Part shown: positions 20,014-42,269 of the stretch, piece after piece
Numbering within the stretch: the stretch's first letter is position 1
How the letters are laid out: each line of letters starts with the position of its first letter
NCBI GenBank assembly: GCA_017437125.1
Contig: JAFSBV010000016.1
Coordinates: forward strand, 48,133-112,132
DNA from: Bacteroidales bacterium
GTDB lineage: Bacteria; Bacteroidota; Bacteroidia; Bacteroidales; UBA932
Reading direction: 5' to 3'
Length of the DNA stretch: 64,000 nt
The notes under the pieces: generated by a model
Database searches by the model: none
What the model saw: only the letters and a program-made list of their open reading frames with translations
Told to the model about the DNA's origin: nothing
Translations under genes and position numbers: made by a program

Positions 20014-20105
20014 TATCTTTGCAGAAATAGAAAATGAGTCCTACTCTGTACGAAGGCTTTAGTTCCACTTTAGCGGTTTATGTAGTACAAGCGGGGCTTG
20101 TTTCT
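20014..20105 (+). ncRNA. Candidate small transcript (sRNA or 31-codon mRNA)
   Basis: A -7 box TATCTTTG (20014-20021, with TTGG 18-20 bp upstream) is followed ~70 bp later by an intrinsic terminator, ACAAGC-GGG-GCTTGT-TTCTTTT, ending near 20105. This defines a ~75-nt transcript ending just before the 3' end of the convergent DUF3800 gene. It contains an ATG at 20034 with a 31-codon frame to 20129 (MSPTLYEGFSSTLAVYVVQA...) whose middle is hydrophobic, but the terminator falls inside that frame. I favour an untranslated RNA. Confidence 0.4.
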
Positions 20106-32528: not shown

Positions 32529-33077
32529 TCTAAAGTCATATTAGGAATTGATCCCGGAACCAATATTCTTGGTTACGGGATCATTCGTGTCGATGCCCAT
32601 GGCCCGAAATTTGTAACTATGGGGGTCTTTGATTTGCGGAAAATCAAGGATCCATTCGAGAAGCTTGCCAACATCTTTGCAGGTGTCGGTGAGATCATCG
32701 ATGAATATAAACCGAACGAACTTGCTGTAGAATCCCCGTTTTATGGAAAGAATGCTCAGGTGGTGCTGAAGCTCGGGAGAGCTCAGGGCGCCGCGATAAC
32801 TGCAGCAATAATGAGAGGGATACCTGTGGCTGAATATGCTCCAAGGAAGGCTAAGATTGCGATTTGTGGTAACGGAGCAGCGTCAAAGGAACAGGTGTCG
32901 ATGATGATCCAGAAGACATTGAAGGTCGAGCTGGATCCGAAGTATCTGGATGCGACTGATGCGCTTGCCATAGCCCTCTGTCACCATTACCAGATGTCGA
33001 ACCCGCTTGCGGGTGTGTCCGGAAAGACCGATTGGAAGAAATTCATCGAGAATAATCCGGACAGGATTAAAAAGTAG
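32520..33077 (+). CDS. ruvC: Holliday junction endonuclease RuvC
   Basis: A 185-residue RNase H-fold resolvase: first catalytic Asp in ILGIDPGTN (D11), a Glu in LAVESPFYGKN and the acidic pair in LDATDALAIALCHH. It cuts four-way junctions during recombination, together with RuvAB. The start codon is GTG; no ATG is available, and the first codons (GTG GAG AAA TCT AAA) belong to a dispersed repeat found elsewhere in the window. Gene order serS-ruvC, with the receptor gene 25 bp downstream. Confidence 0.93.
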   Translation: MEKSKVILGIDPGTNILGYGIIRVDAHGPKFVTMGVFDLRKIKDPFEKLANIFAGVGEIIDEYKPNELAVESPFYGKNAQVVLKLGRAQGAAITAAIMRGIPVAEYAPRKAKIAICGNGAASKEQVSMMIQKTLKVELDPKYLDATDALAIALCHHYQMSNPLAGVSGKTDWKKFIENNPDRIKK

Positions 33078-33102
33078 TGTAACAACTGTAACAACCATAA
33101 CT

Positions 33103-36084
33103 ATGATAAACAACAATGTTGCTCTCTTCAGGAGGGTGATACTGACAGTATGTGTATTTCTTTTGGGATTCTCTGCTTACGCTCAGAATTCATTTACCGT
33201 AAAACTCAAGCTTGTTGATGCAAAGACAGCGGAACCTGTCTCCTTTGCTACGGCATCTCTTACAGTCAAGGGTGAGACGACGGCTGCCAAGTATGTCCTG
33301 ACTGATGCTGAAGGTGCAGCCTCCCTGACAAAAGTAAGGAAGGGAACATATGTCTTGAAAGCGGAACTTATGGGATATAAGTCCCATGAGCAGGAGCTTG
33401 TTGTTGACAAGAACATCGATCTGGGTGAAATCAAGATGAACGAGGATGTCGAGGTTCTGGATGCTGCCAGTGTTTCAGCTGTAGGTAATCCTATAGTCGT
33501 GAAGAAGGATACGATTGAATATACGGCGTCTTCATTCAAGACATCGGATAACGATATGCTTGAGGAACTGCTCAAGAAGCTTCCGGGTGTCGAGGTCGAG
33601 GCTGACGGATCCATCACTGCCAACGGTGAGGCCGTTACCAAGATCATGATTGACGGAAAGCCGTTCTTCCTCGATGACCCTCAGCTGGCTTCCAAGAATA
33701 TCCCGGCAAAGCTGATCGAGAAGATCAAGGTCGTGGAAAAGAAGTCCGATCAGGCAATATTTACAGGTATTGACGACGGAGAAGAAGAGACTGTGATCGA
33801 CCTTTCTGTGAAGCAGGGCATGATGGACGGATGGTTCGGAAACCTCATGGGTGGCGGCGGACATGATGTGCCAGGTGCCGGATCTGACATGAATGATCCA
33901 CGATATCAGGCTGCAGCCATGATGGGACGTTTTTCCGATAACAGCCAGGTGAGCATCATTTTGAACGGAAACAATACCAACAATAGAGGATTCAATGACG
34001 TCGCAGGCGGAATGATGATGGATATGCGTGGCGGTGGCATGGGCCGTGGAATGGGCGGCTGGGGCCGTGGAAACGGTATCTCGACGTCATGGATGGGCGG
34101 TCTCAACGGAACATGGGATCTGTTTGACGACGATATGGAACTCTCCGGAAACTATCTTTACAACCGTTCTGACCGCGTAGTTGAAGAGGAAAGCTCGAGG
34201 GTTACATATATGGATGACGGGAGCCATCTCCTGAACAGGAATGTCGGCTTCAACAATTCTCATTCCCAGGGACATCGTTTCGGAATGCGTCTCGAACATG
34301 ATTTCTCGGAGAATACATCTGTCCTGTTCGAGCCTCAGTTCAATTTCGGCAACGGATATTATTCAGAGCATTCAGAGTTCAATACCGACCGTGCTTTCGA
34401 GGGTGATACGACATATACCAACAAAGGTTTCACTGACAATCTCGGAGATAACCGCAACTGGTCTGCAAGCGGCTTCATGCTTCTCCGTCAGAGACTTGGA
34501 AAGCCGGGAAGAACGGTGTCCGTGAATTTCCGATACAACTTCAGAAACAATGAACTTCTGGGATATAATCAGTCTTTGACATATGCGGATGAAAACAATG
34601 ACAACTCATGGGATGCAGATCCTGAAGTTGTGAATCAGAAGATAGAACGTGTGTCAAGGAATGCTTCGCTCAACGGCCGAGTGGTATATACCGAGCCATT
34701 GGCCGAGCATCTTTATCTCGAAGCGAACTATCAGTACGGATGGAGCAGGAACATTTCTCAGAAGATCGCATATAACAGCGGAAACCTCTATGATCACCTG
34801 GGCTCGAGCGTCACTTCTCTCATATATCAGGAAGAGGGTGCTGTAAAGGACGATACTTATTCCAACGATATTCTCAACCGTATCATAAATCAGCGGGGAG
34901 GTCTGAGCCTCAGTTACCAGAAACCGGGAATCCGTGCCCAGCTCGGTATGGCTGTCACTCCGACAGATACCTACAATGAAACCAATGGCGAGACTTATGA
35001 AAGCAAGGTCTTCAACTGGGCTCCGCAGGCTACATTCAATTATGAGTTCAACGATTATGCTCATCTGAGGATAAGGTATAACGGCCGCTCGTCACAGCCG
35101 TCAACATCGCAGCTCATGCCGGTCCCGGATAATTCCGACCCTCTGAACGTCTCTCTTGGTAACCCGTACCTTGAACCGTACTTCAGTCATAATTTCCGTG
35201 CGAATTTCGGCTATACGAACAGGGAGACATTCACATCCGTCCATGGAAACATCGGAGGAGGAAAGGTTGACAATGCCATTACAAATGCGAAATGGTATGA
35301 CAATGCCGGAGCGCAGTACTCTATACCGGTGAACGGTCCCGGAACCTACTCCGCTAACGGACGAATAATGGTCAATTCTCCTATAGGCAAATCGGATTTC
35401 TCGATTTTCTCGATGACCAACGGTAATTACAATGAGTCAACATCGTTCATCGGCAAGGGAACATTGGACAGCGGAAAGTATTATAATGCAGAAACCGCTG
35501 AATTTAACTATGACCTTTTCCATAAGGATTTCCCTGACCTGACGGAGGCTGAAGACTATTTTACCGAGAACAGGACACAGACCGTAAGCTTCATGCAGAG
35601 ACTCCGCCTTACTTACAGGAATGATTTTGTGGAACTGGTTGCCGGAGGACGTACAAGAATGTCGAAGTCGTGGTACACTATCGCCAATGCGAATACGAAA
35701 GCGACATGGAGCAATCAGGTGGAGTTCTCGATGAACTGGACTGTACCGGGAGGCGTTAATATCATTACTGATGCCGATTATAACTGGTACAACGGATATA
35801 CGACTCCTCAGGAAGATGAAATCATCCTCAATGCGGAGATCACAAAGCTTCTTTTCAAGAACAAATGCACCCTTGCCCTCAAGGCGTATGATATCCTCGG
35901 ACAGTCAAAGAATCTGTCGGTATCAGACAGTCAGAACTACCATCAGGAGGTACGTAACAACACTCTCGGACGTTATGTCATCCTCTCTCTCACATACCGT
36001 TTCGGTAACTTCGGAGGAGCCGGCATGGGTGGCGGACGTGGCCCGGGACGCGGACCAGGAGGACCGATGGGACCAAGAAGATGA
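33103..36084 (+). CDS. TonB-receptor-like outer-membrane beta-barrel protein, paralogue 1
   Basis: A 993-residue protein: signal peptide (LLGFSAYA-QN), CarboxypepD_reg-like Ig domain (~28-110), plug-like domain (SSFKTSDNDMLEELLKKLPGVEV... IMIDGKPFFLDDPQLASKNIPA) and a large OMP_b-brl_3-type barrel. A Gly/Met-rich stretch (GGMMMDMRGGGMGRGMGG) lies near 310-330, and the C-terminus ends in Gly/Pro/Arg repeats. No SusD-like partner is present, so it is not a classical Sus pair. The start MINNNVAL was chosen over the longer frame because it gives a proper signal peptide. Confidence 0.85.
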   Translation: MINNNVALFRRVILTVCVFLLGFSAYAQNSFTVKLKLVDAKTAEPVSFATASLTVKGETTAAKYVLTDAEGAASLTKVRKGTYVLKAELMGYKSHEQELVVDKNIDLGEIKMNEDVEVLDAASVSAVGNPIVVKKDTIEYTASSFKTSDNDMLEELLKKLPGVEVEADGSITANGEAVTKIMIDGKPFFLDDPQLASKNIPAKLIEKIKVVEKKSDQAIFTGIDDGEEETVIDLSVKQGMMDGWFGNLMGGGGHDVPGAGSDMNDPRYQAAAMMGRFSDNSQVSIILNGNNTNNRGFNDVAGGMMMDMRGGGMGRGMGGWGRGNGISTSWMGGLNGTWDLFDDDMELSGNYLYNRSDRVVEEESSRVTYMDDGSHLLNRNVGFNNSHSQGHRFGMRLEHDFSENTSVLFEPQFNFGNGYYSEHSEFNTDRAFEGDTTYTNKGFTDNLGDNRNWSASGFMLLRQRLGKPGRTVSVNFRYNFRNNELLGYNQSLTYADENNDNSWDADPEVVNQKIERVSRNASLNGRVVYTEPLAEHLYLEANYQYGWSRNISQKIAYNSGNLYDHLGSSVTSLIYQEEGAVKDDTYSNDILNRIINQRGGLSLSYQKPGIRAQLGMAVTPTDTYNETNGETYESKVFNWAPQATFNYEFNDYAHLRIRYNGRSSQPSTSQLMPVPDNSDPLNVSLGNPYLEPYFSHNFRANFGYTNRETFTSVHGNIGGGKVDNAITNAKWYDNAGAQYSIPVNGPGTYSANGRIMVNSPIGKSDFSIFSMTNGNYNESTSFIGKGTLDSGKYYNAETAEFNYDLFHKDFPDLTEAEDYFTENRTQTVSFMQRLRLTYRNDFVELVAGGRTRMSKSWYTIANANTKATWSNQVEFSMNWTVPGGVNIITDADYNWYNGYTTPQEDEIILNAEITKLLFKNKCTLALKAYDILGQSKNLSVSDSQNYHQEVRNNTLGRYVILSLTYRFGNFGGAGMGGGRGPGRGPGGPMGPRR

Positions 36085-36122
36085 TTTTATTAAACCTTTG
36101 AGGTTTTAATGTGTCTATATAT

Positions 36123-36152
36123 ACGGTGGCAGAAATATGCCACCGTGTTTTT
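36123..36152 (+). terminator. Terminator between the two receptor paralogues
   Basis: Perfect 9-bp stem ACGGTGGCA / TGCCACCGT, 6-base loop, then GTTTTTT. It lies 38 bp after the first receptor gene, so expression of the second probably relies on readthrough or on a promoter I do not see. Confidence 0.88.
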
Positions 36153-36168
36153 TATAAAGAATTGCGTT

Positions 36169-39100
36169 ATGGTAACGAAATCAGAACATTTCATCCTTAA
36201 GGTTGTCCTTGTATGTGCAGCCATGATCCTCAGTCTTTCTGCTTATGCGCAGAATTCATTTACCGTCAGCATGAAGCTGACCGATGAGAATACTGAAGAA
36301 CCGGTAAGCTTCGCAACGGCTTCCCTGACCAAGGCCGGAGAAAAGTCACCGGTCAAGTATGTCCTTTCGGATAGTGAAGGAAATGCTGTCCTTGAGAAGG
36401 TCAGGAAGGGAACCTATATCTTCAAGGCTGAACTTCTTGGATACAAGGCATTTGAGAAAGAGATAACCGTTGAGGGAGATCTCGATCTCGGCACATTGAA
36501 GATGAAGGAGGATATAGAAGTTCTGAACGCGGCAAATGTATCTGCTGTGGGCAATCCGATCATTGTCAAGAAAGATACCGTCGAGTACAATGCATCGTCA
36601 TTCAAGACTTCCGACAATGATATGCTCGAGGATCTGCTCAAGAAGCTTCCTGGAGTAGAAGTGAATTCCGACGGCAGCATAACGGCAAATGGCGAGACCA
36701 TTACTCAGATCACCATTGACGGCAAGACATTCTTCCTTGATGACCCTCAGCTGGCTTCTAAGAACCTTCCGGCAAAGATGGTGGAGAAGGTGAAGGTTGT
36801 GGAGCGCAAGTCCGAGCAGGCGCAGTTCACAGGTATTGACGACGGTCAGGAGGAATTCATCATTGACCTTTCGATTTACAAGGGCATGATGGACGGATGG
36901 TTCGGAAACCTCACCGGTGGCGGCGGACACGATGCTCCGGACAAGGGATATTACAATGACGAGCATAAGTTCGTAGATGAGGGATGGCGTTACCAGTCAG
37001 GTGCCATTGTCGGTAATTTCAAGGATCATAGCCAGCTTACTCTCATTCTCAATGCAAACAATACCAACAACCGAGGCTTCAATGACCTCGCAGGCGGCAT
37101 GATGGGTGGCATGATGGGTGGAATGCGCGGTGGCGGAATGCGTGGCGGCATGGGCGGCGGTATGATGGGCGGCGGCATGATGGGAGGCGGCATGGGCGGC
37201 TTCGGTGGCGGCGGAATCACCAGCTCATGGATGGGCGGCGTCAACGGCGCATGGGATCTTTTTGACGAGTCCATGGAGCTTTCAGGAAACTATCTGTACA
37301 ATGGCTCCAATGCTCTTGTCAAGGAAGAAAGCTCAAAGATTACATATAGGGAGAACGGAAGCCGTCTTCTTAATGACAACAACGGCTACAGCTCGACCAA
37401 TACCGGAGGTCACAGATTCGGTATCCGCCTTGATCACGAGTTCTCTCCAAACTCTTCGATCCTCTTCGAGCCTCAGTTCAACTTCGGAGGCGGAAACTTC
37501 TCTGAGTTCTCTGACTTCGCGACCAATACTGTAGGAACTGACGGCGTCGAGAGAAAGACCAACAAAGGTTTCAACTCCAGCTACGGTGACAACAATAACT
37601 GGACTGCAAGCGGCCGCTTCCTTTACAGACAGCGCCTTGGAAAGGCCGGAAGAACACTGTCATTGAATGCCAACTATAATTTCAGCAACAATGACATGAC
37701 CAGCTTCAACCAGTCATTGACCAGAGTTGACGACAATCAGGATGACATCTGGGATGAGAATCCGGAAATCATCAATCAGAAATACCTCCAGAATTCGAGA
37801 AGCTCTTCATTGACCGGACGTCTCGTATATACGGAGCCTTTGATGGAGCAGCTTTATCTCGAGGCAAGCTACCAGTATTCTTGGAGCAGGAGCAACAGCA
37901 CGAAGGATGCATTCAACAGCGGCAGCATGGAGTATGGTGATGATTTCATCATATATGATCCTGTAGGAGCGACCCCTGATCCTTTGTATTCGAATTCCAT
38001 CCTGAACGAGAATATCAATCAAAGAGCCGGCCTGACATTCAGCTGGCAGACAGAAAAGCTTACAGCGCAGCTTGGAGCATCAGCCAACCCTACGCATACA
38101 TACAACGAAACCAACGGCAAGACATATGAAAGTAACGTGTTGAACTGGGCTCCTGAGGCAAGAGTTCGTTTCTACTTCAACGACTACACCAACATGATGA
38201 TCAACTACAACGGACGTTCGGCTCAGCCTTCTACATCACAGCTCATGCCTGTTCCGGACAATACCAATCCGTTGAATGTATCGTTGGGTAACCCTTACCT
38301 CAAGCCATATTTCAATCACAACATGCGCTGGAACTTCGGATATACCGATATGGATACATTCACTTCGGTCAATGCCAATATTTCCGGAGGTATGGTTCAG
38401 GACGCTATAACAAACGCCCAGTGGTATGACAAGGCTGGTGTACAGTACTCGATTCCGGTGAACGGTCCGGGAACTGCCAATGCCAATGCCATGCTGATGT
38501 TCAATTCGCCTATAGGCATGTCAGGTTTCTCTATCATGTCCATGACGAATGCCCGTTACAATCAGTCAACATCGTATATCGGTACTGAACGCCTCTCGGC
38601 TGACAAATACTATGATTCAGAAACCGTTACATTCGATTATGAGGCATTCCACAAGGATTTCCCTGATCTCGGCAACACAGATGCATTCACTGAAAACAGG
38701 ACTCTTACAGCTGGTGTGATGCAGATGCTCCGTCTTACCTACAGGAACGATTTCGTCGAGCTCGTTGCCGGTGGAAGGACAAACATGTCGAAGTCGTGGT
38801 ACACCATGAATGAAGTGAATCAGAAGGCTACATGGACCAACAATGCTTCATTCGAAATGAACTGGACCCTTCCTTTCGGAATGAATCTCATTACCGATAT
38901 CAACTATAACTGGTATAACGGATATACTACTGCACAGAAGCCTGAGTTCATCTGGAATGCTGAGATAACACAGCTTCTGTTCGACAAGAAATGCACTATA
39001 GCCCTCAGGGCATATGACCTTCTCAACCAGGCGAAGAACCTGATGGTTACAGATAATTCTGACTACCATATGGAGACACGCAGCAACACTCTCGGACGCT

Positions 39101-39255
39101 ATGTCATCGTAGCATTCACATACAGGTTCGGAACATTCGGCGGAAACCGCGGTAACCGCGGCCCGGGAATGGGACGAGGCGGAATGCGCGGCGGTCCTGG
39201 CGGAATGGGACGCGGCCCGATGGGCCCTCCTCCGGGAGGAATGATGAGGAGATAA
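36169..39255 (+). CDS. TonB-receptor-like outer-membrane beta-barrel protein, paralogue 2
   Basis: A 1028-residue paralogue of the preceding protein, alignable along its whole length (shared blocks: QNSFTV, VRKGTYxxKAEL, SSFKTSDNDMLE, RSxQPSTSQLMPVPDN, NPLNVSLGNPYL). Parts: signal peptide (SLSAYA-QN), Ig-like domain, plug, barrel. The insert between plug and barrel is longer and richer in Gly/Met (GGMMGGMMGGMRGGGMRGG and on). The C-terminal tail is Gly/Arg/Met/Pro-rich (MGRGGMRGGPGGMGRGPMG). A tandem duplication is clear. Substrate unknown; Met-rich segments could bind metal (inference). Confidence 0.85.
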   Translation: MVTKSEHFILKVVLVCAAMILSLSAYAQNSFTVSMKLTDENTEEPVSFATASLTKAGEKSPVKYVLSDSEGNAVLEKVRKGTYIFKAELLGYKAFEKEITVEGDLDLGTLKMKEDIEVLNAANVSAVGNPIIVKKDTVEYNASSFKTSDNDMLEDLLKKLPGVEVNSDGSITANGETITQITIDGKTFFLDDPQLASKNLPAKMVEKVKVVERKSEQAQFTGIDDGQEEFIIDLSIYKGMMDGWFGNLTGGGGHDAPDKGYYNDEHKFVDEGWRYQSGAIVGNFKDHSQLTLILNANNTNNRGFNDLAGGMMGGMMGGMRGGGMRGGMGGGMMGGGMMGGGMGGFGGGGITSSWMGGVNGAWDLFDESMELSGNYLYNGSNALVKEESSKITYRENGSRLLNDNNGYSSTNTGGHRFGIRLDHEFSPNSSILFEPQFNFGGGNFSEFSDFATNTVGTDGVERKTNKGFNSSYGDNNNWTASGRFLYRQRLGKAGRTLSLNANYNFSNNDMTSFNQSLTRVDDNQDDIWDENPEIINQKYLQNSRSSSLTGRLVYTEPLMEQLYLEASYQYSWSRSNSTKDAFNSGSMEYGDDFIIYDPVGATPDPLYSNSILNENINQRAGLTFSWQTEKLTAQLGASANPTHTYNETNGKTYESNVLNWAPEARVRFYFNDYTNMMINYNGRSAQPSTSQLMPVPDNTNPLNVSLGNPYLKPYFNHNMRWNFGYTDMDTFTSVNANISGGMVQDAITNAQWYDKAGVQYSIPVNGPGTANANAMLMFNSPIGMSGFSIMSMTNARYNQSTSYIGTERLSADKYYDSETVTFDYEAFHKDFPDLGNTDAFTENRTLTAGVMQMLRLTYRNDFVELVAGGRTNMSKSWYTMNEVNQKATWTNNASFEMNWTLPFGMNLITDINYNWYNGYTTAQKPEFIWNAEITQLLFDKKCTIALRAYDLLNQAKNLMVTDNSDYHMETRSNTLGRYVIVAFTYRFGTFGGNRGNRGPGMGRGGMRGGPGGMGRGPMGPPPGGMMRR

Positions 39256-39277
39256 ACTGAATCAGGCATGATTTTAG

Positions 39278-39317
39278 GAAAGAGATGAGTGAAAGCGCTT
39301 GTCTCTTTCTTTTTTTA
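39278..39317 (+). terminator. Terminator after receptor paralogue 2
   Basis: GAAAGAGA (39278-39285) pairs with TCTCTTTC (39302-39309), followed by TTTTTTT. Confidence 0.8.
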
Positions 39318-39327
39318 TTTATATTTG
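39298..39327 (+). promoter_or_regulatory. Promoter of the structured leader RNA
   Basis: CTTG (39298-39301), 18-bp spacer, TATATTTG (39320-39327). Transcription would begin near 39332-39335, ~235 bp before the first recognisable gene. Confidence 0.65.
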
Positions 39328-39391
39328 CAGATGAAAATGCGATCAGCATTTTCGGACATATTGAAATTTAAGCATTTGCTTTTATTCTGGA

Positions 39392-39529
39392 CTTCGTGAA
39401 ATTTGGCGATTTTGAAAAGTTTACAGGAATAAAAGTGATGCCTGCGCATGAGCGTGGGTATTCCTTTTCTGTAAACTTAGGTTCGCCAAAACCTCACGAA
39501 GAGAAAAAGAATCCTCACGCTCTTTTTTT
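39392..39529 (+). ncRNA. Structured leader RNA with alternative terminator, possible riboswitch/attenuator
   Basis: Five nested stems form one long hairpin: P1 39392-39399/39494-39501 (8 bp), P2 39402-39409/39483-39490 (8 bp), P3 39417-39426/39469-39478 (10 bp), P4 39427-39431/39459-39463 (5 bp), P5 39441-39447/39452-39458 (7 pairs, ATGA loop). P1-P3 are perfect. GAGCGTG (39450-39456) in the tip also complements CACGCTC (39516-39522), which is followed by seven T's. So an alternative or pseudoknotted fold with a terminator-like tail exists. CCTCACG occurs twice (39492, 39513), so P1 too has a competing partner. No known family recognised. A 22-codon frame (39331-39399) precedes it. Confidence 0.6.
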
Positions 39530-39568
39530 GTGCTGTGGTGAAATACTAACTATTAAATATTTAAAGTC

Positions 39569-39688
39569 ATGAAACAAACAACTAATCTAAACAATTACGA
39601 ATCTCCTCAGATGGAGGTTATGGAAGTCGTTACAGAAGGAATTTTCTGTACTAGTATGGAACCGTCAGATTTTGATATGGGAAACTAA
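39569..39688 (+). CDS. 39-residue peptide of the Bacteroidales YxxPxMEV type
   Basis: MKQTTNLNNYESPQMEVMEV, then VTEGIFCTSMEPSDFDMGN; no signal peptide. The pattern (Tyr-x-x-Pro, alternating hydrophobic/Glu, then a short hydrophobic-Cys-Ser motif and a polar tail) recurs in many tiny Bacteroidales proteins of unknown role, often beside fimbrillin-like genes. It lies 13 bp before the large lipoprotein gene and ~40 bp after the structured leader, so all three are probably on one transcript. Too short for most gene callers. Confidence 0.65.
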   Translation: MKQTTNLNNYESPQMEVMEVVTEGIFCTSMEPSDFDMGN

Positions 39689-39701: not shown

Positions 39702-42269
39702 ATGAAGAAAGTCATTTTATCACTGCTTGCTGTTTCAATGATATTATTCAGCAATTGTACTCAGAAAGAGTATGAAAGTCCGGTAATTGAAAAGTCATTG
39801 GAACTCACAGCCATTATGGAGGGCGAGACACAGACTCGCTCAGAAGTTACAGATAATGGATATTTCACATGGGCCGAGGGAGATGAGATATTAATCTTCT
39901 CTGGTGAAAGCTCACAGAAAGGAACACTTTCAGATGGAGCAGGAACACCTGTAGCCAAATTCACTTACGAAGAAGAAATTGAGGCAGATGCATATGCATA
40001 TGCTGTATATCCTCACAATACAAAGCATTCGCTTGATAACGGTACTTTGACTGTCAAAATGCCTGCAGTTTATGAACTTGGAAAAAACACATCAAACACA
40101 AATGCCATTATGCTTGCTGTTTCTCAGTCTGAAGAGGCTGATTTCAAATTCCAGCATCTTGGTGCCGTTATCCGTTTCAACTTTAAGAACGTTCCGGCAG
40201 GGGTTGATAAGTTAGTTCTCTCTCTTGGAGGCAAAAAAATCAACGGTGAGTTTGTTGTTGACACAGAAAACCTCACTATCTCTACAGCTGATACAGATGT
40301 AGAAGAGGAAAAATCTATAACTCTTGAATTCGAGGCGCTGACAGCTGCTTCTAATCTCAAGTTATATGTTCCAGTGCCTGTCGGTGAATATAAAGGGATG
40401 GCTGCTTGTCTAAAAGCAGGCGAAGAAACAGTGTGGGAGTATTCAAGCGATAATGCATCTAACAATATCAACAGAAGAGACCTTAAGCTCGCAACAGTAC
40501 AGATTACAGAGGGACTCGCTGGTGCAGGAACAGAGGCGAATCCATATCTGATAGCAGACCTCTCGGATCTCATAGCTTTCCGTGATCATGTAAATGAAGA
40601 AGGAACTAAATATAATGCAGAAGGTGTATATGTTGCGCTTACTGACGATATTGATATGAGTTCTGTTGATTGGAGTGTAAATATCGGTGATGATTGCAAT
40701 ACCACTTTCGACGGAATCTTTGATGGTAGGAATCACGTGATTAGAAATCTGAACAGCGTTGAGACAGCAGCAAAAGCCGACGAATATTTCTGTACTGGAC
40801 TCTTCGGAGCTATCTATGGACCGGCTGTAGTCAAGAACCTCACCATTGAAAACGTTGACATCAACGCAGGTGAATTTACTGGTAACAATGCCGGAGCAGT
40901 TGTCGGTTTTGCATACAAGAGTACTGGGTCAATCGAGAATGTCAAGGTTACAGGTGACATCAACATCAACGCTGCGGGCATTACAGGAACAGGTGCTGTT
41001 GTCGGTTATGCATATAGTAGTAAACTCAATCTCCTGAATTGTACAGTTAAAGGTAATGAGGGCTCGAAAATAGTTGGTGCTGCATATGTGGGTGGTCTTA
41101 TCGGTTATTCGACCATGGATGTCTTAGTAGGCAATACAGTCAGCAACATTGATGTCACTGCAACCAGCTGCTGTGCCGGAGGTGTTGCCGGAATCATGCT
41201 TGCAGGAGGACAAGCATCGAACAATACAGTAACTGATGTCAATCTTATTTCAACGCACGAAAACTGGCATAACTCTGCTGCTGTTGTAGTTGGTGCTATT
41301 ACAGGCAAGGTTAATGTAGCAGGAACTGAGTTTGATAATGTTACAGCAAACGGATCTGCTACCACTTCAATCGTCGGCAGCGCACATGCTGATAAACCGA
41401 CTACTCCTGTTGCAAAGGTACAGGCAAGTGTTGAGAACGATTTTTACGTGACATTCGCTGAGGCCCTTGCTGATGCAACCAATGAGCAGACAATCACATT
41501 GTGGTCTGACATTGTGATGTCTGAGACTCTGACTATCGCGAAAGACAACGTTCTTTCATTGGATTTGAATGGCTATGATGTAAGCTACGCTGTGGATAAT
41601 GATGGTAAGGCTTCGGCTATTTTCAGTAATAACGGTACTTTGAATCTTTCCAACAATGCAGATTCAGAGTCAGTGATTTCATTTGTAGCAAGTGACCCGG
41701 ATCTTGAGAAAATTCCTTCATATGCAACAAACACAATCTCAAACTACGGCACTTTGACCATCGGTAAGAATGTGGTCGTTACAAACACAAGCGACGGTGG
41801 GGCAAGTTATGCTGTTGATAATCATGCATTCTTTACTCTGAACGGTGGTACATTGCTTGGAAACAGATGTGCATTGCGTATAGCAAAGTTCAACCCATCA
41901 ACAGTAGTATTCACAATGGTAGATGGTCTTATTAAAGCCGGCACACCAGCATGGATCCACTTGCCAGGTAGCGATAGTAGTGTTGCTCCTTCTATTACTG
42001 TAGTCATTGAGGGAGGAAGAATGGAGACTACAAAGGAAACAAGTGCGGATAACAATATATTCTATTCGTATTCGTATGGAAATAGTCATGCTAATACTAC
42101 TATCAATATTTCAGGTGGCGAATTTATTGGTGGAACAGTCTCTATCGGAAGTGGCTACAAGGGTGATGCACCGGAGATGAACATTACTGGAGGTAAATTC
42201 GACTATGATGTAGTACAGTGGCTTGAAAATGATGAATATAAAGTATTATATGAAGCTAACAATAATTAG
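39702..42269 (+). CDS. Fimbrillin-like beta-helix surface lipoprotein with GLUG repeats
   Basis: An 855-residue protein. The lipoprotein signal ends SMILFSNC (Cys ~19). Residues ~25-260 look like a Mfa-like/fimbrillin domain (TRSEVTDNGYFTWAEGDEILIFSG, YAVYP, FQHLGAVIRFNFKNV). Residues ~280-560 carry GLUG-type beta-helix repeats (GLFGAIYGPAVVKNLTIENVDI, GAVVGFAYKSTGSIENVKVTG, GGLIGYST, GGVAGIM). The rest is a right-handed beta-helix-like region (NGTLNLSNN, YGTLTIGKNV, FTLNGGTL). Probably surface-exposed adhesin or glycan binder (inference). The gene is noticeably more AT-rich than its neighbours. Confidence 0.8.
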   Translation: MKKVILSLLAVSMILFSNCTQKEYESPVIEKSLELTAIMEGETQTRSEVTDNGYFTWAEGDEILIFSGESSQKGTLSDGAGTPVAKFTYEEEIEADAYAYAVYPHNTKHSLDNGTLTVKMPAVYELGKNTSNTNAIMLAVSQSEEADFKFQHLGAVIRFNFKNVPAGVDKLVLSLGGKKINGEFVVDTENLTISTADTDVEEEKSITLEFEALTAASNLKLYVPVPVGEYKGMAACLKAGEETVWEYSSDNASNNINRRDLKLATVQITEGLAGAGTEANPYLIADLSDLIAFRDHVNEEGTKYNAEGVYVALTDDIDMSSVDWSVNIGDDCNTTFDGIFDGRNHVIRNLNSVETAAKADEYFCTGLFGAIYGPAVVKNLTIENVDINAGEFTGNNAGAVVGFAYKSTGSIENVKVTGDININAAGITGTGAVVGYAYSSKLNLLNCTVKGNEGSKIVGAAYVGGLIGYSTMDVLVGNTVSNIDVTATSCCAGGVAGIMLAGGQASNNTVTDVNLISTHENWHNSAAVVVGAITGKVNVAGTEFDNVTANGSATTSIVGSAHADKPTTPVAKVQASVENDFYVTFAEALADATNEQTITLWSDIVMSETLTIAKDNVLSLDLNGYDVSYAVDNDGKASAIFSNNGTLNLSNNADSESVISFVASDPDLEKIPSYATNTISNYGTLTIGKNVVVTNTSDGGASYAVDNHAFFTLNGGTLLGNRCALRIAKFNPSTVVFTMVDGLIKAGTPAWIHLPGSDSSVAPSITVVIEGGRMETTKETSADNNIFYSYSYGNSHANTTINISGGEFIGGTVSIGSGYKGDAPEMNITGGKFDYDVVQWLENDEYKVLYEANNN

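Follow-up and report, generated by a model that had tools for sequence, protein, structure and literature searches.

A leader RNA family of Bacteroidota with two competing apical pairings, proposed to work as a transcription attenuator

The element described here lies in a window of 64,000 nucleotides (the whole stretch of DNA that was analysed) from a Bacteroidales genome, and the element and the genes that follow it are on the forward strand. Before it, two adjacent and similar outer-membrane proteins are encoded at 33007-36084 and 36109-39255, with a carboxypeptidase-regulatory-like N-terminus and Gly/Arg-rich C-terminal tails; the second, the only one of the pair that was scanned, matched the Pfam family OMP_b-brl_3. 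The element itself occupies 39330-39530 and is preceded at 39299-39327 by a promoter-like site, formed by TTG at -33 (39299-39301), a spacer of 18 nt and TATATTTG at -7 (39320-39327), in agreement with the Bacteroidota-type promoter consensus. A sigma-70 scan called one site, at 39361-39388, and left this promoter uncalled. The first ORF after the leader (39569-39688) encodes a 39-residue peptide of the YxxPxMEV type, and the next one (39702-42269) encodes a predicted surface lipoprotein of 855 residues, with a signal sequence and a lipobox in the translation; neither product matched Pfam.

The minimum free energy of 39330-39530 was -70.6 kcal/mol, compared with -42.0 ± 3.9 for dinucleotide shuffles (n = 200, z = -7.3), and none of the 200 shuffles folded as well as the native sequence. 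Right after the expected transcription start this fold showed an 8-bp hairpin, H0 (GAAAATGC-GATCA-GCATTTTC, 39333-39353), and a second small hairpin, H1 (AAGC-ATTT-GCTT, 39370-39381), was placed by the covariance-model match. The five nested stems that had been proposed, P1 to P5, were recovered by the fold at 39392-39501. P1 joins CTTCGTGA (39392-39399) to TCACGAAG (39494-39501) by 8 bp and P3 joins AAGTTTACAG (39417-39426) to CTGTAAACTT (39469-39478) by 10 bp, both supported by fold and covariation. P2 pairs TTTGGCG(A) with (T)CGCCAAA, its strands being located at 39402-39408 and 39484-39490, and P5 is formed by GCCTGCGC (strand a, 39440-39447) and GCGTGGGT, both helices being supported by covariation. 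The 3' strand of P2 is framed by GGT (39480-39482) and ACC (39491-39493), which could form a short stem with that strand as its loop. In the apex, strand b (GAGCGTGGGT, 39450-39459) can pair either with a, giving P5, or with strand c (CTCACGCTC, 39514-39522), and both pairings are supported; in the window GAGCGTG(GG) at 39450-39458 is complementary to (C)CTCACGCTC, and seven Ts follow at 39523-39529. A scan for consensus terminators, which considered loops of 3-8 nt only, called sites at 39276-39311 and 39437-39462 and left b:c uncalled. The sequence CCTCACG is present twice (39492-39498 and 39513-39519), as had been noted, but the rival partner that this repeat would offer to P1 was not conserved and looks coincidental, since among P1, P2 and P3, the helices counted, P1 varied most, with 153 distinct sequences in 196 rows.

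By DNA similarity the window element was a single copy in its own genome, and 101 genomes of the same genus gave one relative (L003, 72% over about 150 nt) and two matches of 27-29 nt to the promoter region. The apical pattern GCCTGCGCNNNAGCGTGGG was searched in genome and viral contigs; at least 120 genome stretches and 51 viral stretches were screened with two flanking motifs, and three Bacteroidales stretches were inspected by eye. Its matches were mostly GC-rich chance, and two, L105 and L107, were judged true among the matches listed. An order-wide pattern that included the tail was found in 2 of 393 genomes and in none of the control; it was too strict as a detector of the family and gave a fifth sequence, L207. 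The first covariance model was built from L207, L105 and L107 only. It recovered the two sequences left out, the window with 82.6 bits (E 1.8e-17) and L003 with 69.5 bits (E 2.6e-14), a recovery that is blind only beyond the apex, because the training trio had been picked through the apical 19-nt pattern common to the window and L003. With this model at least 65 of 247 genomes of the order matched at E ≤ 1e-3. Across the phylum, at E ≤ 1e-6, a model rebuilt from 33 sequences, the window included (R2), matched at least 37 of 296 genomes, of which eight belong to other classes; in the window's genus it matched at least 45 of 121 at E ≤ 1e-5. The searches of order, phylum and genus scored 10 to 24 candidates per genome, so these counts are lower bounds. 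In another genus R2 matched 8 of 8 genomes, with 2 to 17 copies in each. The distribution across genomes is sporadic.

In the genome of the window R2 gave five matches at E ≤ 1, four of them convincing (113.5, 77.3, 70.7 and 42.5 bits) and the fifth marginal (21.2 bits, E 0.47). This marginal copy, L243 (G000:C98), has a much longer apical arm and keeps UAUGACAU upstream and CCACGC with a U-tract downstream. Members were also found on a plasmid of Chryseobacterium shandongense (92.6 bits), on a plasmid of Bacteroides finegoldii (50.7 bits), on the viral contig L402 (85.1 bits) and on two faecal contigs labelled as phage (80.9 and 66.6 bits); TonB genes follow a B. finegoldii member. A second viral pattern gave two contigs, L402 with its member and L403, which had no R2 match at E 0.01; a third had zero matches in the viral contigs, and phage and plasmid searches with the window and with L105 as queries gave no convincing match. 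The 194 members considered below are high-ranking places taken roughly in rank order, not at random: 90 from the order search, 49 from the phylum, 49 from the genus and, besides L105 and L107, the window element with three further copies of its genome. The two alignments of this set, A9 and A10, contain 196 rows each, two more than there are members, because a reverse-strand artefact and a duplicate, which count as rows, were excluded from the member counts. On six contigs (G274:C931, G115:C295, G177:C66, G111:C416, G214:C288 and G147:C552) two co-directional copies lay 1.1-2.6 kb apart, resembling tandem units of leader and gene, and opposite-orientation pairs were seen on G170:C573 and G170:C600.

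Compensatory change in the stems, proposed at the outset as the check on the fold, was plentiful. In an alignment of 33 rows 98.1% of the cells were paired, 30 of 41 pairs had double changes, and 268 cells were doubly changed compared with 67.6 ± 6.2 in shuffles and 39 to 50 in slid versions. With 94 rows (93 of them distinct) 96.6% of the pair cells were intact and double compensatory changes were present in 40 of 41 pairs, the doubly changed cells being 891 versus 229.6 ± 14.2 in shuffles and at most 159 in slid controls. Both alignments were fitted to the model, so these counts lean towards it. The recovery of left-out sequences and the folding of single sequences are free of this bias, and in the latter 72 to 92% of the P1 to P5 cells were present over 196 rows, with 13% for H1. 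By helix, double changes were found in 7 of 7 pairs of P1 and 7 of 8 of P5 (both in A9), in 7 of 7 of P2 and in 4 of 4 of H1. Over all helices of the 196 rows there were 596 G.U against 74 A.C cells, an asymmetry which indicates that the gene-sense strand is selected as RNA; in P2 alone both numbered 6. The window element is thus a member of a structured-RNA family found through Bacteroidota, with compensatory changes as in structured cis-regulatory leaders. An additional helix between the 3' arm of H1 and the GGAUAAG linker was rejected on its swap control (mean 9.89 versus 9.65, maximum 9.99).

P2 differs from its neighbours, with 56 distinct sequences in 196 rows compared with 145 in P3, and it is nearly devoid of G.U (6 of 1276 cells in these rows); in the 94-row alignment its first five pairs contain none. 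Across the family GGU or GGC and ACC or GCC flank its 3' strand, and the variable positions of these flanks covary: in the 192 rows of 196 that could be parsed, the third nucleotide of GGx and the first of yCC were UA in 136, CG in 41, UG in 12, AU in 2, UU in 1 and CA in 0, so UA and CG together reached 177, compared with 117 (maximum 136) in 2000 shuffles. The 5' strand is framed by GAAA and UUUC-type segments, for which the swap control was exceeded by less (4.30 versus 3.97, maximum 4.09). Taking into account both frames, the simplest proposal is that the loops of two small hairpins kiss through P2; this is suggested by covariation rather than by a solved structure.

The complementarity between the apical tip and the tail had been noted in the initial annotation, and it was kept in nearly all of the family. 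Strand b, which in many members is GCGUGGG, pairs with a in P5 and has its alternative partner in c, in many CCCACGC or UCCACGC. At least seven consecutive b:c pairs were present in 182 of 194 members, against a mean of 148 (maximum 156) when tails were swapped; one of the 12 members lacking a 7-bp helix is cut by a contig end. The mean b:c score was 20.8 versus 17.7 ± 0.18 in 200 tail swaps. In the covariation count 95.7% of the cells were paired, double changes were seen at 5 of 7 pairs, and 8 cells were doubly changed compared with 1.3 in shuffles; of five measures, four put b:c above every one of the 500 shuffles and one put it above 495 of them. Altered b was matched by altered c, as in GGUGCGG/CCGCGCC and GUGUGAGC/GCUCACAC. 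Judged by these sequence comparisons, the pairing between 39450 and 39516 passed the covariation check that had been suggested for it, and it is no coincidence. Strand c is similar to the complement of a segment that is conserved in 16S rRNA. Mimicry of 16S rRNA was discarded on the divergent L271, L272 and L281, where b and c change together, which indicates that the intramolecular pairing is what is kept.

Around the end of c, U had a frequency of 0.52-0.90 at eleven positions (-4 to +6) and of 0.24-0.40 beyond them (193 members). A GC-rich helix adjoining a U-tract, as in an intrinsic terminator, is thus available. In 126 of 179 members its predicted stability exceeded that of a:b (-16.3 versus -12.2 kcal/mol in the window), a comparison that leaves out 15 of 194 members having no full P5 and leans towards b:c, for which flanking bases were allowed. 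The short loop of a local terminator hairpin was not found: the arms of b:c are 55 nt apart in the window, and in 179 members the median distance is 57 nt (range 35-70), with P1' to P4' in between. When P1 to P4 are formed b:c is a pseudoknot, with a linker of 13.4 ± 1.8 nt (94 rows).

The promoter-like site noted before the window element has its counterpart in the family. In the 120 nt upstream of the 194 members the box TAnnTTTG occurred 177 times versus 17.4 in shuffles (10-fold), and 145 members had at least one. With ORFs called by a simple greedy rule instead of a gene finder, a gene lay within 400 nt downstream of 173 members and was co-directional in 165; for upstream genes the figure was 89 of 165. 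Between leader and start codon lay a median of 61 nt. The intervals between leader and start codon contained 3 TAnnTTTG boxes in 107 versus 4.9 in shuffles, which is no excess, so that, judged by this box, the only one considered, the downstream gene appears to lack a promoter of its own; the leader lies in cis. Two motifs accompany part of the members. Ten of the 194 (L211, L214, L226, L230, L235, L236, L253, L313, L316 and L357) have an extra hairpin, with a UGGGRYU loop and a variable stem, between the RNA and the start codon, against 0.05 in shuffles, and TGACAT was found upstream of H1 in 26 of 194 against 5.4. A coding role for the mini-ORF ATG-ACA-TAA upstream of H1 was dropped, as in several relatives it looks like ordinary sequence following H0.

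A hydrophobic, signal-like N-terminus was predicted in 106 of 165 genes downstream of the leader and in 25 of 124 on its upstream side (Fisher p 5e-14) by a rule that merges secreted, lipoprotein and membrane proteins and cannot separate them. Considering 133 pairs of copies within eight genomes (median identity 78%, range 68-94%), the similarity of 120 stopped no more than 100 nt past the RNA, and that of 12 extended beyond 150 nt; one leader stands in front of mostly unrelated genes. We scanned 133 of the 162 distinct downstream proteins and, as controls, 133 of the 166 upstream ones. Downstream Pfam matches included TonB plug (7), MmeI methyltransferase (6), T9SS tail (5), EcoRI methylase (3) and BspA repeats (3), with response regulators (3) and sigma factors (3) also among the best 25 of 87 families; NCBIfam gave SusC/RagA (7), and PADLOC gave type IIG and II restriction-modification proteins, BrxP (2), ZorA (one) and SspB (one). 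No pathway common to the targets emerged from the Pfam, PADLOC and NCBIfam scans of these 133 proteins, and in the window's genus the leader often precedes restriction or methylase genes instead of genes for secreted proteins. On the upstream side HTH, PIN and toxin-antitoxin genes were abundant, and the proteins scanned there matched 119 PADLOC families, against 44 for the downstream ones. A defence enrichment specific to the downstream gene was accordingly abandoned: the loci are accessory regions, and the bias in signal-like N-termini is the only one specific to position. Neither did the tie to YxxPxMEV peptides and fimbrillin genes extend to the family, as 2 of 5 copies in the window's genome precede them. 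Such peptides (YxxPE/QxxVM..EGxxC, 39 and 44 residues), which matched no Pfam family, are encoded at 39569-39688 of the window and at 1770-1904 of L242, in both cases with a leader copy before and fimbrillin-like lipoproteins directly after them, and a peptide similar to that of the window follows the copy at G000:C53.

Taking together the stem and b:c covariation, which support the two-state leader originally suggested, we favour with moderate confidence a two-state transcription attenuator as the function of this new Bacteroidota family of leader RNAs acting in cis. Polymerase would start at the TAnnTTTG promoter, and a leader of roughly 200 nt would fold into P1-P5, with P2 as the kissing contact between the two small hairpins. 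While b is held by a in P5, c would stay free and polymerase would continue into the gene. If c, on emerging, captures b, a GC-rich helix would form before the U-tract and transcription would end at about 39529. The balance between both states would be set by a ligand or a protein recognising the conserved core. At the level of sequence the family has two exclusive conserved pairings, one of them tied to a putative expression platform, as expected of a riboswitch. The weak point of this mechanism is geometry, because b and c are separated by a median of 57 nt and b:c would be pseudoknotted with P1 to P4 formed; it would be no canonical local hairpin and would need either the pseudoknot or the melting of P1-P4. 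We know of no intrinsic terminator of such a long-range pseudoknotted build. Attenuation is further weakened by the small number of doubly changed b:c cells, by the 12 members short of a 7-bp b:c helix, by the equal G.U and A.C numbers in P2, by the sporadic distribution and by targets that share no pathway.

Some riboswitch leaders, such as the purine riboswitches, have a tertiary loop-loop contact. The present family resembles riboswitch leaders in its 5' position, its complex covarying fold, the proposed kissing loops and the exclusive pairings upstream of a U-tract; in contrast to them it is a candidate with no ligand assigned and no common target pathway, and its switching strand is apical rather than part of P1. 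With transcription attenuators it has in common a strand, b, belonging to two helices, U residues after the second of them, and a gene that would be reached by read-through, whereas its terminator-like helix joins distant strands, with about 57 nt between them, and no leader peptide with a codon run was seen. 6S RNA and 6S-Flavo (RF01685) are also long bulged hairpins in Bacteroidota; the family differs from them in its 0 to 17 copies per genome, its leader position and the lack of an Rfam match. Rfam 15 at curated thresholds gave four matches in the whole window, none at the element, and 0 in 20 member loci, as had been anticipated for the window element. Relaxed searches of the window element and L225 gave only weak matches far below gathering; those resembling MIR8007 and SNORA26 (21 bits versus gathering cutoffs of 195 and 40) were put down to chance. 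Elsewhere in the window, a DUF3800-VIII RNA matched at 20035-20100 on the forward strand with 47.1 bits (gathering 40.2).

The family is new as far as Rfam 15 and the literature searched go, and parts of it may sit in published candidate lists, with which it was compared by description. In the titles and abstract beginnings of the open literature searched, no description of this leader family was found; it is not mentioned in the portions consulted of a B. thetaiotaomicron transcriptome paper (PMC10994844) or in those of one on F. psychrophilum (PMC9723704), whose supplement is stated to list 64 structured 5' regions. Some Bacteroidetes motifs, Bacteroides-2 and GUCCY-hairpin included, are described with no Rfam number (PMC2864571, as far as consulted); like the present family they are candidate RNAs of Bacteroidetes, and they fall outside the Rfam searches made here. 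Bacteroides-2 is reported there from one sequenced organism, unlike this family, by description. The human-microbiome list, in the parts seen (PMC8040213), contains the palindromic Bacteroidetes candidates HMP2_1032, HMP2_4205 and HMP_4078, hairpins of 106-132 nt. HMP2_1032 was predicted to be a terminator and lies near TonB, which recalls the member before TonB genes in B. finegoldii, and these candidates might be fragments of this leader family; in contrast to it they are described as palindromes on both strands, with no switch analysis in those parts.

Other explanations have to be weighed against attenuation. The leader could recruit processive antitermination, of which put-, EAR-, ops- and dfn-like types exist, with the RNA fold itself, or a NusG paralog bound to it, loaded onto polymerase and promoting read-through of recently acquired surface or defence genes. 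NusG paralogs (UpxY) act on Bacteroides capsule operons, and the leader position, the accessory targets (T9SS cargo, SusC, R-M, BREX and Zorya proteins) and the members on plasmids and phage contigs are all consistent with such a role. It appears unlikely to us nonetheless, given that many targets are ORFs of about 100-400 residues, and that the tripartite b/c pairing with its U-tract is more directly explained by attenuation. Bacteroidota mRNAs are largely devoid of Shine-Dalgarno sequences, so the leader might instead act after transcription, protecting the mRNA 5' end or controlling ribosome access, with the U-rich tract as a translation enhancer. The end of the leader at about 61 nt from the start codon and the UGGGRYU hairpin of 10 of the 194 members would fit this role, but the joint change of b and c and the abutment of c on the U-tract are left unexplained by it, and we consider it quite unlikely.

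The upstream promoter box, the terminator-like end and the up to 17 copies per genome would also suit a stand-alone small RNA, a terminated product of roughly 195 nt acting in trans beside a bystander gene. Multicopy sRNA families exist in Bacteroides, such as FopS, which like the present RNA is multicopy, and which in Bacteroidaceae has effects on SusC-type genes (PMC11697453, as far as consulted). According to the same source FopS acts in trans, is in Rfam and is built from a single-stranded 5' stretch and a terminator hairpin, an architecture that differs from that of this family, where such a 5' seed and hairpin were not found. The co-direction of 165 of 173 downstream genes, their narrow spacing, the lack of promoter-box excess in between and the signal-like N-termini concentrated downstream speak against a bystander, and make this explanation improbable. 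Much less credible still is a mobile DNA element, or a single-strand DNA recombination site (MITE- or attC-like), carrying a promoter. Copies scattered at unrelated sites, named in advance as the sign of a MITE, do occur; they are multiple, in variable contexts and partly on mobile elements, next to upstream HTH, PIN and toxin-antitoxin genes and in pairs of either orientation, and P2 alone has no G.U excess. But the copies stand co-directionally about 61 nt before genes, in a fixed relation to the start codon and mostly behind a promoter box, and those within a genome are a median of 78% identical with compensatory changes, none of which is expected of a MITE; the G.U to A.C asymmetry, which a DNA element would not show, points to selection on the gene-sense RNA. 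A retron was dropped on architecture.

Returning to attenuation, a leader so structured, spread over the phylum and repeated up to 17 times in a genome would imply a regulon and a signal undescribed in the literature searched. With it Bacteroidota would have their own class of switch, acting on the genes of surface proteins and nutrient receptors and on those for restriction. The covariance model permits annotation of the regulon, and the structure yields predictions directly testable in vitro. It is also conceivable, though rather doubtful, that the family is a phylum-wide sensor RNA whose core is a kissing loop and whose terminator is a pseudoknot from apex to tail, and that it ties what the surface exposes (TonB receptors, T9SS adhesins, lipoproteins) to restriction and other phage-defence genes. 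If so, one intracellular signal would set both the surface shown to phages and the defence of the cell; this coordination is weakened by the defence enrichment not being specific to the downstream gene. As a separate observation, similar genes for MmeI-like methyltransferases of the restriction type stand behind leader copies at L003/L273, L240, L234, L282, L288, L289, L291 and L382, in two families of the order.
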